The notes beneath the pieces were generated by a model that worked only from the letters and a program-made list of their open reading frames with translations, was not told the origin of the DNA and did no database searches. DNA of 64,000 bases from Alphaproteobacteria bacterium (GTDB lineage: Bacteria; Pseudomonadota; Alphaproteobacteria; Acetobacterales; Acetobacteraceae). Where the stretch lies: NCBI GenBank assembly GCA_017307285.1, contig JAFKFI010000061.1:73803-137802 (forward strand), read 5' to 3'. Of the stretch, positions 36,079 to 44,756 are shown in pieces. Within the stretch, counting starts at the first letter, position 1. Each line of letters begins with the position of its first letter. The position numbers and the translations under genes were made by a program.

Positions 36079-36122
36079 TAGCGGTCCTTGTGCCTGAGGA
36101 AGCGGGTGGTATAGCGCGTCGC

Positions 36123-37241
36123 ATGGTGGTGCTGCAGGTGTTGCCTTCCCTCGTCACCGGCGGCGTCGAGCGTGGCACCGTCGAGATGACGCGAGCCGTC
36201 GCCGAGGCGGGCGGCACCGCGCTGGTGGTGAGCGCCGGCGGCCGGCTAGTCAGCGCCATCCGGCACGCGGGCGGCAGGCACGTGACCTTGCCGCTCGACA
36301 CCAAGGACCCGCTGAACGTGATGTGGAATGCCCGGCGGCTTGCGGACCTGATTCGTGTGGAGGGCGTCGAGATCGTCCATGCCCGATCGCGCGCGCCCGC
36401 CTGGTCGGCGTATTTCGCGGCGCGCCGCGCCGATGCCCATTTCCTCACGACCTACCACGGCGCCTATAGCGAAGGCTTCCCGTTCAAGCGCCGCTACAAT
36501 TCCGTGATGGCAAAGGGCGAGCGTGTCATTGCCATCAGTCGCCATATCGCGGCGCTGATAGAGGCGCGGCATGGGGTCGACCCGGCGTTCATCCGGGTGA
36601 TCCCGCGCGGCGTCGATCCAGCGGTGTTCGATCCGGACGCCATCTCGGGCGAGCGGATCGCCCGGCTCGCCGCCGTCTGGCGATTGCCGGATGGGATGGC
36701 GGTCGTGCTGCTGCCGGGGCGATTGTCGCGCTGGAAGGGGCACGAGGTGCTGCTCGATGCCGTGGCGCGCATGGGGCGGCGCGACGTGTGCTGCGTGCTG
36801 GTCGGCTCGGAGGGGCGTGACGGCTATGCGGCAGCGTTGGTCCGGCGGGCCGAGCGGTTGGGCATCGCAGGCCGGCTGCGCATTCCCGGCGAATGCGACG
36901 ACATGCCGGCGGCGTTGCTGCTGGCCGATGCCGTGGTGCATGCCTCCACGGCGCCCGAAGCATTCGGCCGGGTGGTGATTGAGGCGCAGGCGATGCAGCG
37001 CGTGGTGATCGCCTCGGATTTGGGCGGTCCGGTCGAGACGGTGGAGCACGGTGTCACCGGCTGGCGCGTGCCGCCGGGCGATCCGTCGGTGCTGTCGGAG
37101 GCGCTCGATCACGCGCTGTCCCTGGCGCCGGAGGAGCGTGCGTCGCTTGGCGGACAGGCGCGGCAGGCGGTGTTGGCACGCTACACCACGCGGGCGATGC
37201 AGGACGCCACGCTCGCCGTCTATCGGGAGTTGCTGGCGTGA
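36123..37241 (+). CDS. Glycosyltransferase family 4
   Basis: 372 residues with a GT-B fold. The N-terminal VLQVLPSLVTGGVERGTVEM binds the acceptor side. The C-terminal half has LLPGRLSRWKGHEVLLDAVA and the donor-binding EAFGRVVIEAQAMQ (EX7E). ATG 36123 fits the family start; an in-frame GTG at 36090 would add 11 residues. It overlaps the GT9 gene downstream by 4 bases (GTGA), so both probably build LPS core or O-chain sugars. Confidence 0.92.
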   Translation: MVVLQVLPSLVTGGVERGTVEMTRAVAEAGGTALVVSAGGRLVSAIRHAGGRHVTLPLDTKDPLNVMWNARRLADLIRVEGVEIVHARSRAPAWSAYFAARRADAHFLTTYHGAYSEGFPFKRRYNSVMAKGERVIAISRHIAALIEARHGVDPAFIRVIPRGVDPAVFDPDAISGERIARLAAVWRLPDGMAVVLLPGRLSRWKGHEVLLDAVARMGRRDVCCVLVGSEGRDGYAAALVRRAERLGIAGRLRIPGECDDMPAALLLADAVVHASTAPEAFGRVVIEAQAMQRVVIASDLGGPVETVEHGVTGWRVPPGDPSVLSEALDHALSLAPEERASLGGQARQAVLARYTTRAMQDATLAVYRELLA

Positions 37242-38143
37242 ACCGCATCCTGGTGATCCGGCTAGGTGCGTTGGGCGACTTCGTCCAGTCTTTCGGACCC
37301 TTCGCTGCGATCCGCGCGCATCATCCCGAGGCGCGAATCACTTTGCTGACCACGCGCCCGTTCGCAGCACTTGCCGAACGCGCCCCGTGGTTCGACGCGG
37401 TGCTGGTCGACGGCCGTCCGGCATGGTGGAACGCACTTGGCTTGCTCCGCCTGTCACGAATGCTGCGCGAGTTCGACTTTGTCTACGACCTGCAGACCTC
37501 CGCCCGGTCGTCGCGCTATTTCCGTCTGGCCGGCCGGCCGCGCTGGTCCGGCATCGCGCGCGGCTGCTCGCATCCGCACGCGAATCCCCGACGCGACGCC
37601 ATGCACACGCGTGAGCGCCAGCGCGAGCAGCTGGAGATGGCCGGGATCACGGCGTTCCCGTCCCCCGCGCTAGACTGGCTCGCGGATCGGCCCACTGTCG
37701 CGTTGCCGGACCGTACTGCCCTGCTGGTGCCGGGGGCGGCGCCGCATCGACCACGCAAGCGCTGGCCCGCCGAGCGCTTCGGCGCGCTTGCCGCACGTCT
37801 CGCCCGCAGCGGCTACGCGCCGGTGGTAGTCGGCACGCGGGCCGAGGCGCCGCTCGCGGCGACTATCCAGGCCGCGTGCCCGGGCGCCCTCGACCTCACC
37901 GGGCGCACCGCCATCGCCGATCTCGCCGGCCTGGCGGCGCGCTCGCGCCTTGCGGTGGGCAACGATACCGGCCCGATGCACCTCGCGGCCGTGGTCGGGT
38001 GCCCCTGCCTCGTGCTGTTTTCGGCGGAGAGCGATCCCGCGCTGACCGCGCCGCGCGGGCCGGACGGGTCATGGCCGAAACTGCTCCGCGTTGACGATTT
38101 GGCAACTCTGACGGTGGACAGGGTTGCAGACGCGCTTGCTTGA
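37238..38143 (+). CDS. Heptosyltransferase-type glycosyltransferase family 9
   Basis: 301 residues. The N-terminus RILVIRLGALGDFVQSFGPF is the classic GT9 start. The C-terminal donor site has VGNDTGPMHLAAVVGCPCLVLF. Family members (WaaC/WaaF/WaaQ) add heptose to LPS inner core. The precise sugar cannot be assigned. The GTG start overlaps the stop of the GT4 gene. Confidence 0.92.
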   Translation: MNRILVIRLGALGDFVQSFGPFAAIRAHHPEARITLLTTRPFAALAERAPWFDAVLVDGRPAWWNALGLLRLSRMLREFDFVYDLQTSARSSRYFRLAGRPRWSGIARGCSHPHANPRRDAMHTRERQREQLEMAGITAFPSPALDWLADRPTVALPDRTALLVPGAAPHRPRKRWPAERFGALAARLARSGYAPVVVGTRAEAPLAATIQAACPGALDLTGRTAIADLAGLAARSRLAVGNDTGPMHLAAVVGCPCLVLFSAESDPALTAPRGPDGSWPKLLRVDDLATLTVDRVADALA

Positions 38144-41024: not shown

Positions 41025-43292
41025 ATGCCCCCTCGCGCGCGTGTGCTGCATATCAACAAGCTCTATCGACCGATGTTCACCGGAGAAGGCGTGTTTCTCG
41101 AGCGCTGCTCGGTGTTCATGCAGATGTGGGCGCCCGGAATCGAGCACGAACTGCTCGTCACCACGACGCCGGAGCCGATCGAGCCACAGCCGGTCTGCTC
41201 CACGCTGAGCCACATTCACTACCTGACGAAGCGGCCAGTTGGCAATCTGCGCCACGAGCTGCTGTTGGTCTGGTGGTTCATCTGCAATCTGCACCGTTAC
41301 CAGACAGTGCATGTCCACGTGCACGCGGACTGGTATTTCTTGACCTATATTCTTTGCAAACTAACACGTCGTCGCCTGGTGCTCTCGGCCACCCTGGAAG
41401 ACAGCGTGCCGGTGCTGGTGACACGCTACCGTGCCATGCTCCGGCCCCTGGCCGGGCGAATGTTCCGTCTCTTCGACGCTTATGTCTCGATCAGTCCGAA
41501 ATTGCAGGCGGAAACCTCGGCCGCCATGCCGGCGGAAAAATGCCATCTCCTGCCGTGCGGGATCACCTTCCCGCCGCTCGGCCACAGCCGTCGGCGGGAA
41601 ATCCGGGATCGCTTCGGCATCCCCGACGATGCGCTCGTGCTAATCTTCGTCGGTGGCCTGTGCAAGCGAAAGGACCCGATGCTGCAGGTCCGGATGTTCC
41701 CGGAGTTGCTGCGGCACCGGCCCGATCTCCACCTGCTGCTGGTGGGTCCGCCACTTGAACCCGACTATGTCCAGGCCATACGGGAGTTCATCGAGGCGGA
41801 AGGCCTCGAGCATCGGGTCATCTTCGTGGGCGAGGTTCCCGATCCGCACCCGTATTTCGAGGCAGCGGACATCATGACCTTCGCGTCGCACCTCGAAGGG
41901 TTCGGTACTGTGGTGCCGGAGGCTATGGCCAATGCTCTTCCCGTGGTCGCGCGACACCTGCCCGGCGTCAATGACAGCTTCGTCAAGGACGGCGAGACCG
42001 GGTTCCTCTTCAGCCGCGACGCCGAATTTCCCGAACTTGTCCTGAAGCTGGCGAATGACGCCGAGCTCCGGCTCAAGTTCGGCCACGCCGGTCGCGAGCT
42101 GGCCCGGCGAATGTTCGACATGCGGCAAGTGGCACGACGCTATCTTGAGATCTACGGTTTCGACCAGATCCCTGAACCTCCCTCCGCCGCGCCCTCCGCG
42201 GAAGCTGCCTGGGAGGAGGTCATTCCGATAAAGGCCACCTGCTCGATCATAAGTCCGCGGTTTCATACGCCGGCCCGTTTCGATGCTGGGATGCGGCCGA
42301 TGCTGGTGACGATGATCGACGCCGAGGAGGCATTCGATTGGGGGCTGCCCTTTTCGCGGTCGTCGATCGACGTTACCTCGATGGGTCATCAGGGTGCCGC
42401 CCATCGCATTTTTGAGCGTTACGGGGTGGTGCCACTATATGCGGTGGACTACCCGGTGACGACCCAAGAGGCTGGCGCGGCGCCGCTGCGTGAGCTCCTG
42501 CAAGACGGGCTCTGCGAGATCGGCACCCAGTTGCACCCCTGGGTCACGCCGCCTTACCTCGAGGACGTGACTGCGAGAAACTCATATCCGGGCAGCCTCC
42601 CGCTGACGCTCGAATTCGAGAAGATCCGGGCGATGACGGAAGCCATCGAGGATGCGTTCGGCCTGCGTCCGCAAATCTACCGGGCCGGGCGCTACGGCGC
42701 CGGGCCGCGCACAGGCGACATCCTGAAGCATCTTGGCTATCTGGTGGACAGCAGCGTGATGCCGGCATGGAGCTTCGTCGGTCAGGAAGGGCCAGACTAC
42801 ACTATGCTGCCGGCAAAGCCCTACTGGATCGATCCTGAGCAAACGGTCCTCGAGATGCCGGGCTCCGCGGCAATCGTTGGCCGGCTGTCGGATGTTCGCG
42901 GCGATGTGCTGCGCCGTATCGTCTTCAGCAGGCTCGGAGAGCGGGTAGGGATCCCGTCGGTCATGGCCCGCCTTCGATGCCTCGAACGGATCAAGCTGAC
43001 GCCCGAGGCGATCACGATTTCCGAGGCGAAGCGGCTGGTCCGTCACATGCTCGCGCATGACCACAAGGTGTTCGTCCTCACCTATCACACGCCGTCCTTG
43101 GTTCCGGGCAATACGCCGTATGTGCGCACACAGGAGGATCTGCGACGGTTCCTGGCCTGGCTCGACGAATTCTTCGACTTCTTCACGCGCGAAGTCGGCG
43201 GCTCATGCGTCAGTTGGCGTGACGTGCGCGGGGCGCTTCTCGGCAAGCCTGGGCAGACGACACCGGCGCCGCTGGAGACGGTCGCTATCTGA
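41025..43292 (+). CDS. Fusion of glycosyltransferase family 4 and polysaccharide-deacetylase-like (WalW-type) domain
   Basis: 755 residues from ATG 41025 (AGGA six bases upstream; TTG 41001 is possible). Residues about 1-385 are a GT-B glycosyltransferase with FVGGLCKRKDPMLQVRMFPE and EGFGTVVPEAMANALPV (EX7E). After a Pro/Ala-rich linker, residues about 424-745 resemble the WalW-type polysaccharide deacetylase fold: RPMLVTMIDAEEAFDWG, GTQLHPWVTPP, YRAGRYGAGPRTGDILKHLG and VFVLTYHTPSL, keeping Asp and His residues expected for metal-dependent NodB-like chemistry. It probably links sugar transfer with N-deacetylation in making a surface glycan. No signal peptide. The substrate is unknown. Confidence 0.82.
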   Translation: MPPRARVLHINKLYRPMFTGEGVFLERCSVFMQMWAPGIEHELLVTTTPEPIEPQPVCSTLSHIHYLTKRPVGNLRHELLLVWWFICNLHRYQTVHVHVHADWYFLTYILCKLTRRRLVLSATLEDSVPVLVTRYRAMLRPLAGRMFRLFDAYVSISPKLQAETSAAMPAEKCHLLPCGITFPPLGHSRRREIRDRFGIPDDALVLIFVGGLCKRKDPMLQVRMFPELLRHRPDLHLLLVGPPLEPDYVQAIREFIEAEGLEHRVIFVGEVPDPHPYFEAADIMTFASHLEGFGTVVPEAMANALPVVARHLPGVNDSFVKDGETGFLFSRDAEFPELVLKLANDAELRLKFGHAGRELARRMFDMRQVARRYLEIYGFDQIPEPPSAAPSAEAAWEEVIPIKATCSIISPRFHTPARFDAGMRPMLVTMIDAEEAFDWGLPFSRSSIDVTSMGHQGAAHRIFERYGVVPLYAVDYPVTTQEAGAAPLRELLQDGLCEIGTQLHPWVTPPYLEDVTARNSYPGSLPLTLEFEKIRAMTEAIEDAFGLRPQIYRAGRYGAGPRTGDILKHLGYLVDSSVMPAWSFVGQEGPDYTMLPAKPYWIDPEQTVLEMPGSAAIVGRLSDVRGDVLRRIVFSRLGERVGIPSVMARLRCLERIKLTPEAITISEAKRLVRHMLAHDHKVFVLTYHTPSLVPGNTPYVRTQEDLRRFLAWLDEFFDFFTREVGGSCVSWRDVRGALLGKPGQTTPAPLETVAI

Positions 43293-43337: not shown

Positions 43338-44756
43338 TCAGTTACCGACGTCCTGCCGCTTGAGTGGATCGCCCAACATCGAACGATACAGATATTTCAG
43401 CGGACGCTTGACGCCGAGACTCTCCGCCAACGAGCGGATGAAGGGCACGATGACATAGTTCATCTCGATGCCTAGGCGGTATTCGATCGTGCCCAGCGGG
43501 TTGCGCAGCAGGTAACGTCGCATGAAGGCGCGGTATTGCGCGCGTGTATAGACTTTCGCATTGCCGCCGACCTTGGCGACCAGCGGGGTGAAGCGCGGAT
43601 AGAGCGTTGTGTTGATCAGCCGCACTTTCATGAAATTCCCGATGAGCAGGTCGTCCAGATAACCATATTCGGCTGTGGTCATCAGCGACTGTTTCGGCAC
43701 GATGAAGCCGACGCCACGCCGCTTCGCCTCGGGCCGCGCGTCCGGCCGGTTGAGATCGAAGCGGCGCGTCTCACCGCCCACTGTGAACTCCACGAAATCG
43801 ACATGCCGCTGTGCCATCTCGAAGCGGCGGACGAAGGCATCGACCTGCCCCCACTCTGCTTCCGACAGTCGCGCGGACCAGTCATCGTCTCCGGTCTGCC
43901 CGGTGATCTGCGTGGTATCCGACTCATGGGAGGGGTGATTTCGCATGCAATCGCCGGTCGCCAGGTCCACCGTCACGAACGGCTCGACAAGGCGGACCTT
44001 AGGGCGGGACCAATGGCTCTGCATATCGGTCCAGCCAATGCGGTAGGGATTGGCCCAGACGGAATCCGCCCGCACATAGATGTGCTGCGACGAGGAGCAG
44101 CAGAAACTTCCGACGCCCATCCGCTCGGCGGTGCGTGCGACACTCCAGATCGCGCCCCGTTTGCGCTCCTCGGGCGGACCCACGAGGGAGCGGCCATGCT
44201 CGTCGACGAAGTTGAACATATCGGCGTCGACGGAGCACAGCGCGAGCAGATAGGTCCGCTCCCGAGGATACCGTCGGACCAGCCGGCGGAGAAAGCCGAG
44301 CTCGCCGCTCAGGGGCGAATCGTTCATGTCGATGATGAGGGCACCATCCGCCTCGATCACCAGCATCGCGTCCTGATTCATGTTGTCCATGCAGAGCACA
44401 CGGACGGTGTCCGAGACGCGGAACCACTGCCGGTACGCGAGGATCGTGACGTCGAAGCCCAGCTCTCTCAGGTGCGCAGCGATTTCCGAATTGTAGTGAT
44501 CCGGTAAGAGAACCTTCTTGCCCTGCGGCAACAAGGCAAGCGATTCGTCATGCAGATGATCGGGATGTCCGTGCGAAATCCAGATGTAGTCCGCCGCCTT
44601 GAACCGCTCAATCTGCTCCTCGGTGAGCGGATGGTCGAGCGCCCAGCTGCCAAAATAACAGGTTCCGGTCAGCCAAGGATCCGTCGCGATGACGGGACGG
44701 TCACCATCGAATACGATCACGGACGCGTTGCCGAGCGTCTCGAAGCGATGCTCCAT
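43338..44756 (-). CDS. MBL-fold metallo-hydrolase, CMAH-like
   Basis: 472 residues from ATG 44756. The metallo-beta-lactamase motif SHGHPDHLHDE lies near residue 66. N-terminal DPWLTGTCYFGSWALD and further YLLALCSVDADMFN resemble the catalytic region of CMP-N-acetylneuraminate hydroxylase (CMAH) rather than ordinary hydrolases. The N-terminal Rieske domain of CMAH is absent. The C-terminal 200 residues are not recognised. It converges with the GT4-deacetylase gene (45 bases between stops), so a role in modifying the same glycan is inferred, not shown. Confidence 0.78.
   Translation of the reverse strand: MEHRFETLGNASVIVFDGDRPVIATDPWLTGTCYFGSWALDHPLTEEQIERFKAADYIWISHGHPDHLHDESLALLPQGKKVLLPDHYNSEIAAHLRELGFDVTILAYRQWFRVSDTVRVLCMDNMNQDAMLVIEADGALIIDMNDSPLSGELGFLRRLVRRYPRERTYLLALCSVDADMFNFVDEHGRSLVGPPEERKRGAIWSVARTAERMGVGSFCCSSSQHIYVRADSVWANPYRIGWTDMQSHWSRPKVRLVEPFVTVDLATGDCMRNHPSHESDTTQITGQTGDDDWSARLSEAEWGQVDAFVRRFEMAQRHVDFVEFTVGGETRRFDLNRPDARPEAKRRGVGFIVPKQSLMTTAEYGYLDDLLIGNFMKVRLINTTLYPRFTPLVAKVGGNAKVYTRAQYRAFMRRYLLRNPLGTIEYRLGIEMNYVIVPFIRSLAESLGVKRPLKYLYRSMLGDPLKRQDVGN

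Follow-up and report, generated by a model that had tools for sequence, protein, structure and literature searches.

The gene at 41025..43292 (+) of the 64,000-nucleotide stretch of DNA analysed here (hereafter the window) most likely encodes a conserved bifunctional protein of 755 aa, predicted to join a GT4 glycosyltransferase (GT) to a deacetylase of the WabN type, and would represent a new, fused form of a known enzyme pair. We consider it probable that this protein works in the cytoplasm, where it would transfer a HexNAc and then de-N-acetylate it, the tasks of WabH and WabN being carried by one chain. The fusion, its conservation, the predicted folds, the kinship with Klebsiella proteins and the joining of the deacetylase domain to several kinds of GT were all computed and are described below.

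Integrity and architecture of the fusion gene

The assignment of this gene as a GT4 glycosyltransferase - WalW/WabN-type deacetylase fusion is based on its ORF, on Pfam and on related loci. The frame is unbroken over 755 codons, from an ATG at 41025 to the stop at 43292, with a possible alternative start at a TTG (41001). From the N- to the C-terminus, it comprises the GT4 half, defined by Pfam and alignment (residues ~1-380, 41025..42164, +), a linker whose approximate borders were set by eye (residues ~381-404, 42165..42236, +) and the predicted NodB-fold deacetylase half, delimited by alignment and structure model (residues ~405-745, 42237..43262, +). Related loci were found by a scan of one genome per species, and 31 named loci were retrieved. 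The same GT4-deacetylase pair is present in 26 of them (L001-L026), hosted mostly by Roseomonas-type genera; it is complete in a single frame in 23 of these 26 and interrupted by contig ends in two (L020 and L026). The best segments of the related named loci are 46-59% identical to the window's fusion. A frame error fusing two genes, an objection that the preliminary description had itself raised, is ruled out by the intact ORF and by the related loci with the same pair, 23 of them complete in one frame, and its central claim of a transferase and a deacetylase on one chain stands. In Paracraurococcus (L022:5881-8242, +), the fusion is split over two frames, owing to a frameshift that is either genuine or introduced by the assembly.

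The GT4 half matches PF00534 with an E-value of 4.2e-30 (105 bits for a cut-off of 26.4). Its EX7E pair consists of E291 and E299 (codons at 41895 and 41919), and both Glu are kept in 25 of 25 aligned copies (24 named loci and the window's). The Roseomonas nepalensis copy (L025:5911-8142, +) has kept an intact deacetylase half, but its GT half is shorter and has a changed EGFG motif; this GT half may be in decay.

No hydrophobic segment was found in the fusion protein: the maximum 19-residue Kyte-Doolittle mean is 1.10, the usual membrane threshold being ~1.6, which agrees with the earlier claim that there is no signal peptide. Among stand-alone deacetylase domains, the mean near the start does not exceed 1.34 in 48 of 49, the remaining one being not measurable. 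The GC content of third codon bases is 0.78 in both the fusion gene and the neighbouring metallo-beta-lactamase-fold (MBL) gene, versus 0.82-0.88 in eight other window genes compared; four of the 36 other window genes lie below this value, so that the low-GC signal is weak.

Kinship to WalW and WabN

When plasmid records were searched with the fusion protein, matches covered its second half only and came from two Klebsiella genes, annotated as 'WalW protein' in K. aerogenes and as 'deacetylase' in K. pneumoniae (tblastn, 26-27% identity, E-values of 2e-13 and 2e-16). E-values of the GT, MBL and Klebsiella comparisons refer to small custom sequence sets, hence the use of bit scores for the Klebsiella genes: the profile of the window-family deacetylase reached 150 bits on the intact K. 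pneumoniae gene and 106 bits on the K. aerogenes gene. By this kinship of sequence, the deacetylase half is of the WalW/WabN type, as the preliminary description had recognised in calling it WalW-type. The K. pneumoniae gene sits between rfaQ (waaQ) and a GT9 gene, the K. aerogenes gene likewise adjoins rfaQ (waaQ) among LPS-core genes, and the K. pneumoniae protein reads D-T-E, H-L-H-A-W, RAGRW and HS at the conserved places. WabN is listed beside WaaQ (PMC5485987), and the Klebsiella deacetylase is a probable WabN by gene place, annotation and the papers considered here.

Transfer followed by deacetylation is already known from split genes, namely from the WabH/WabN and GpgS/GpgD pairs. The original work on the WabH/WabN reaction reportedly has the words 'two enzymatic steps are required' in its title. 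According to PMC8552709, wabH is the gene of a GlcNAc transferase and wabN that of an LPS-GlcNAc deacetylase, and outer-core GlcN needs both. This pair of the enterobacterial LPS core thus resembles the window's protein in combining a transferase, acting first, with a homologous deacetylase that carries the same set (D-x-E, H-x-H-x-W, RAGR and HS); it differs in that two separate genes are involved and in that position 100 (domain numbering) is H in the Klebsiella protein and Q in the window protein. In Pseudomonas aeruginosa, GpgS and GpgD are reported to make glucosaminyl phosphatidylglycerol (GlcN-PG), likewise by a GT4 and then a deacetylase; their genes are neighbours, a predicted flippase comes next, both enzymes are predicted to be cytoplasmic and a gpgD mutant accumulates the acetylated lipid, GlcNAc-PG (PMC12713373). 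The latter pair is unfused, and GpgD is assigned to COG3233 in that source. By analogy, both split pairs support the coupling of transfer with de-N-acetylation proposed in the preliminary description, whereas its statement that the two activities normally occupy different compartments was overstated, GpgS and GpgD both being predicted cytoplasmic in that same source.

An open-access literature search found no publication describing a GT fused to WalW. A GT is likewise paired with a deacetylase in bifunctional polysaccharide deacetylase/GT2 proteins, BshA/BshB and MshA/MshB, but there the deacetylase belongs to another family or its part is extracytoplasmic.

Fold and candidate metal site of the deacetylase half

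The structure model of the deacetylase half, built from a 39-row alignment (pLDDT 95.2, pTM 0.93), predicts a NodB fold. Its best match among solved folds is 3rxz, a putative polysaccharide deacetylase (Z 22.2, rmsd 3.2 over 244 residues); 3qbu (HpPgdA) gives a Z of 22.1 and an rmsd of 3.2 over 236 residues, and PuuE (Z 20.5) and ArnD (Z 18.5) rank lower. Compared with the sequences of solved structures, the domain profile found 3rxz at an E-value of 0.033 and next only pyruvate oxidases at about 1. No Pfam family, PF01522 included, matched this half up to an E-value of 1, and the domain searched alone found no NCBIfam family; canonical CE4 membership by Pfam or NCBIfam was rejected on this basis.

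Conservation was read from 111 domain rows (31 named loci and 80 fetched places, with three duplicates and a few partial rows). Seven of the 80 places (L188-L194) were hand-picked from a phylum search, partly for their long frames; they enter the 111-row conservation and the tree, and are left out of the place counts for family and class. The alignment locates the motifs DAEEAFDW (42318..42341, +), which contains D30 and E32 in domain numbering, GTQLHPWVTPP (42522..42554, +), with a [Q/H]-x-[H/Q/N] pair at positions 100 and 102, RAGRYG (42681..42698, +), at the place of CE4 motif 3, and TYHTPS (43080..43097, +), with H286. D30 and E32 are kept in all 110 rows having a residue there, W104 and R154 are invariant in 111 of 111 and H286 is present in 109 of 110. 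From these positions, D30 would be the probable base, E32 the probable metal ligand and H286 the probable general acid. In HpPgdA, Asp14, His86 and His90 are described as the ligands of the ion, and Asp12 and His247 as the residues at the water (PMC3084791); D30 and E32 would correspond to Asp12 and Asp14 if the start of the model is ungapped (model residue 20 to chain residue 2), and H286 is the likely counterpart of His247. The exception for H286, L148, is degenerate elsewhere too: this deacetylase copy (frame 986-2035, +, genome G026) also lacks E259 and W37, lies on a long tree branch and is probably decaying. The second copy of the same genome (L119) has the full conserved set.

The canonical HxxxH metal motif (MT2) is absent from this deacetylase family, all 111 rows having [Q/H]-x-[H/Q/N]-x-W instead. 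Positions 100 and 102 read QH in 66 rows, HH in 39, HQ in five and HN in one, so that every row has at least one His and none lacks both; the window protein, with Q and H, has Gln in place of one His. The six rows without His102 all keep His100 (p 0.0036 by random dealing, relatedness ignored), which suggests a pair of positions where one His would be enough. Because HxxxH is missing and the window protein has this Gln, its metal site is only putative. Two deacetylases encoded in the same genome were each aligned once by profile, with local E-values of 1.8e-8 (L053) and 7e-4 (L054); the L053 alignment sets H102 opposite the first His, with an unsure motif-2 register. With CE4/NodB deacetylases such as HpPgdA, the window domain shares the predicted NodB fold, the acidic ligand place, the motif-3 Arg and the motif-5 His; it differs in being fused to a GT4 and in lacking both HxxxH and a PF01522 match. 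The preliminary description, which had treated the metal ligands as decisive, is therefore borne out in part: the HxxxH ligands are missing, while the domain has a conserved set of its own, also seen in the Klebsiella protein that occupies the WabN position.

Such a site could also belong to a protein that is no de-N-acetylase, either a NodB-fold amidohydrolase or deformylase acting on another group or a metal-less binding domain. This would suit the missing HxxxH and the Q found at position 100 in 66 of the 111 rows, and ArnD, which is a deformylase, is among the fold matches. PuuE, an allantoinase also among the best folds, has the same fold and is reported to be metal-free (PMC10967932). 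We nevertheless hold it unlikely, because D30, E32, W104, R154, H286 (109 of 110) and at least one His at positions 100 and 102 are conserved, and because this same set is found in the Klebsiella protein at the place of WabN; de-N-acetylation remains the preferred activity.

Distribution and domain architectures

The deacetylase domain was found in 36 of 100 sampled genomes of the window's family (window's included), at 37 places. Since GTs near the domain were detected with nine GT queries, all counts of fused and adjacent GTs are lower bounds: among the 36 fetched family places, 12 are GT-fused, 12 have a same-strand GT gene within 350 nt and 12 have neither, so that the survey of homologues suggested in the preliminary description found both fused and split forms. 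The 12 fusions comprise six with an N-terminal GT4, three with a C-terminal GT4 (L116, L117 and L147) and three with an N-terminal GT2; in L147, the first part of the deacetylase domain is missing in that frame. In the class sample, 41 of 385 genomes have the domain (window's included), and the 37 fetched places divide into five GT-fused, four GT-adjacent and 28 without a close GT; in two of the last, an MBL protein is the fusion partner. These 28 of 37 class places indicate that the domain can do without a GT.

The C-terminal fusions and the tandem deacetylase-GT4 pairs (nine with 17-74 nt between the domain matches and a tenth, L144, with 299 nt) use related GTs and can therefore be seen as fused and split versions of one pair. 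A quick tree built from 104 domain rows requires at least 10 changes between the fused and unfused states and at least 11 between architectures, and strongly supported branches force at least four fused/unfused changes. The window domain belongs to one clade of 25 GT4-fused rows (SH-aLRT 99). Transferase and deacetylase have apparently been joined several times during evolution; these values do not fix how many separate fusions took place, since three changes may equally reflect a single gain plus two losses. Yet another type of fusion is L190:5965-9609 (-), a 1215-aa frame with a PcRGLX-like RIFT-barrel domain first and the deacetylase domain last. The long frames of L118, L187, L188 and L191 were considered as fusions and counted as not fused, having no Pfam domain upstream; they are probably open frames due to high GC.

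The partners of the domain include GT2s, GT4s unlike the window's in either order and an MBL-fold protein. This joining to unlike GTs in both orders, often with no GT nearby, is what would be expected if both halves were active on different sugars or pathways and the fusion merely co-localised them. We regard this as very improbable, given that a GT is fused or in tandem in 24 of the 36 family places, and retain a common substrate for the two halves.

Gene surroundings and the MBL-fold neighbour

In the window, the fusion gene is flanked by infC and the MBL gene, with no evident glycan cluster. Two adjoining genes at 36090-38143 (+), 2.9 kb upstream of the fusion, are by eye what we take to be GT4-like and GT9-like genes; thrS and infC lie between them and the fusion. 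None of 13 other window genes matched the flanks (up to 6 kb per side) of the 31 named loci at an E-value of 1e-20 and 40% coverage, and in this comparison no gene order kept around the fusion was found in these relatives. The surroundings of one relative, L006, include an MOP flippase, a GT2, a GNAT-like acyltransferase, GT4s and a relative of the XrtA-type amidotransferase (TIGR03108, 752 bits, under the cut-off of 817), and seven neighbouring L006 frames have homologues at 16 to 23 of the 31 loci (uncurated clusters). We infer that such surroundings fit work on a lipid-linked glycan before flipping. The GNAT-like acyltransferase (PF13480; L006:8671-10071, +) recurs beside the fused gene in relatives, and its homologue in the window's genome is on another contig; an acyltransferase of this type could re-acylate the freed amine.

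The MBL-fold protein (43338..44756, -), assigned by motif and structure model, is convergent with the fusion at a distance of 45 nt. It has an HxHxDH motif whose H62, H64, D66 and H67 are invariant in eight rows, and falls below the Pfam cut-offs (18.9 bits versus 27 for PF12706, 19.2 versus 24 for PF13483). Its model (pLDDT 75.0) is closest to 3x2z (Z 18.0, rmsd 2.8 over 209 of 471 residues), tied within 1 with CmlA (Z 17.6), and the MBL fold matches cover residues 1-288 only. In L169 and L175, close homologues (E-values of about 1e-205 to 1e-209) precede the deacetylase domain within one fused frame, and L126 has a close homologue in a row MBL-GT2-deacetylase. The gene is rare, with three of 100 family genomes and five of 385 class genomes (each count includes the window's genome); a distant class copy (31%) belongs to G257, a genome not among the domain-bearing ones. 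The deacetylase domain is present in six of six genomes with a close MBL copy, two of which share a genus, so that this co-occurrence is no independent statistic; four of these genomes have the MBL gene and the domain linked, and the other two (G026 and G437) have them on different contigs.

Proposed function and order of the two steps

In the reading that we favour, the GT4 half would add a sugar bearing an N-acetyl group to a membrane-linked acceptor, the sugar most likely being a HexNAc such as GlcNAc supplied by a UDP donor. The WalW/WabN-type half would then remove the acetyl group from the transferred sugar in the cytoplasm, so that the sugar would carry a free amine by the time the product is flipped. 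We infer the reaction, its order, its compartment, its donor and its acceptor, while the acetyl group and the HexNAc as substrate features are assumed by analogy with precedent.

The order could be reversed, the deacetylase half first converting UDP-GlcNAc to UDP-GlcN and the GT half then transferring the free-amine sugar. Nucleotide-sugar channelling of this kind would suit a fusion, and a nucleotide-sugar-first order has been proposed for Acinetobacter 2901/2900 from mutant structures in PMC10936431, which for another sugar proposes transfer first. However, WabH/WabN and GpgS/GpgD are described as running transfer first, as the acetylated lipid of the gpgD mutant illustrates, and a domain fused to GT4s, GT2s and a GT-less MBL protein suits a modifier of products better than the maker of a single donor. 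We thus judge the reversed order improbable. The preliminary description had left both orders open; deacetylation after transfer agrees with both split pairs, and deacetylation before transfer has been proposed for the single Acinetobacter pair.

Significance

For a known transferase/deacetylase pair, the MBL partner is unexpected and the metal site unusual. A broader view, possible although doubtful, is that WabN-type deacetylases form an interchangeable editing module attached by bacteria to different GTs, with the MBL protein as a third enzyme in the same route (acting on the freed amine or the acyl group) and a relaxed metal site in which Gln may replace one His. If these proposals are true, many Roseomonas-type bacteria use a single chain and two coupled reactions to make an amino sugar whose amine is free and positively charged, the Q/H-x-H site widens the range of working NodB metal sites and the MBL link hints at a third step that has gone unrecognised. 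Fused, reversed and split forms occur as a natural series, with which one can test whether fusion speeds or directs deacetylation.
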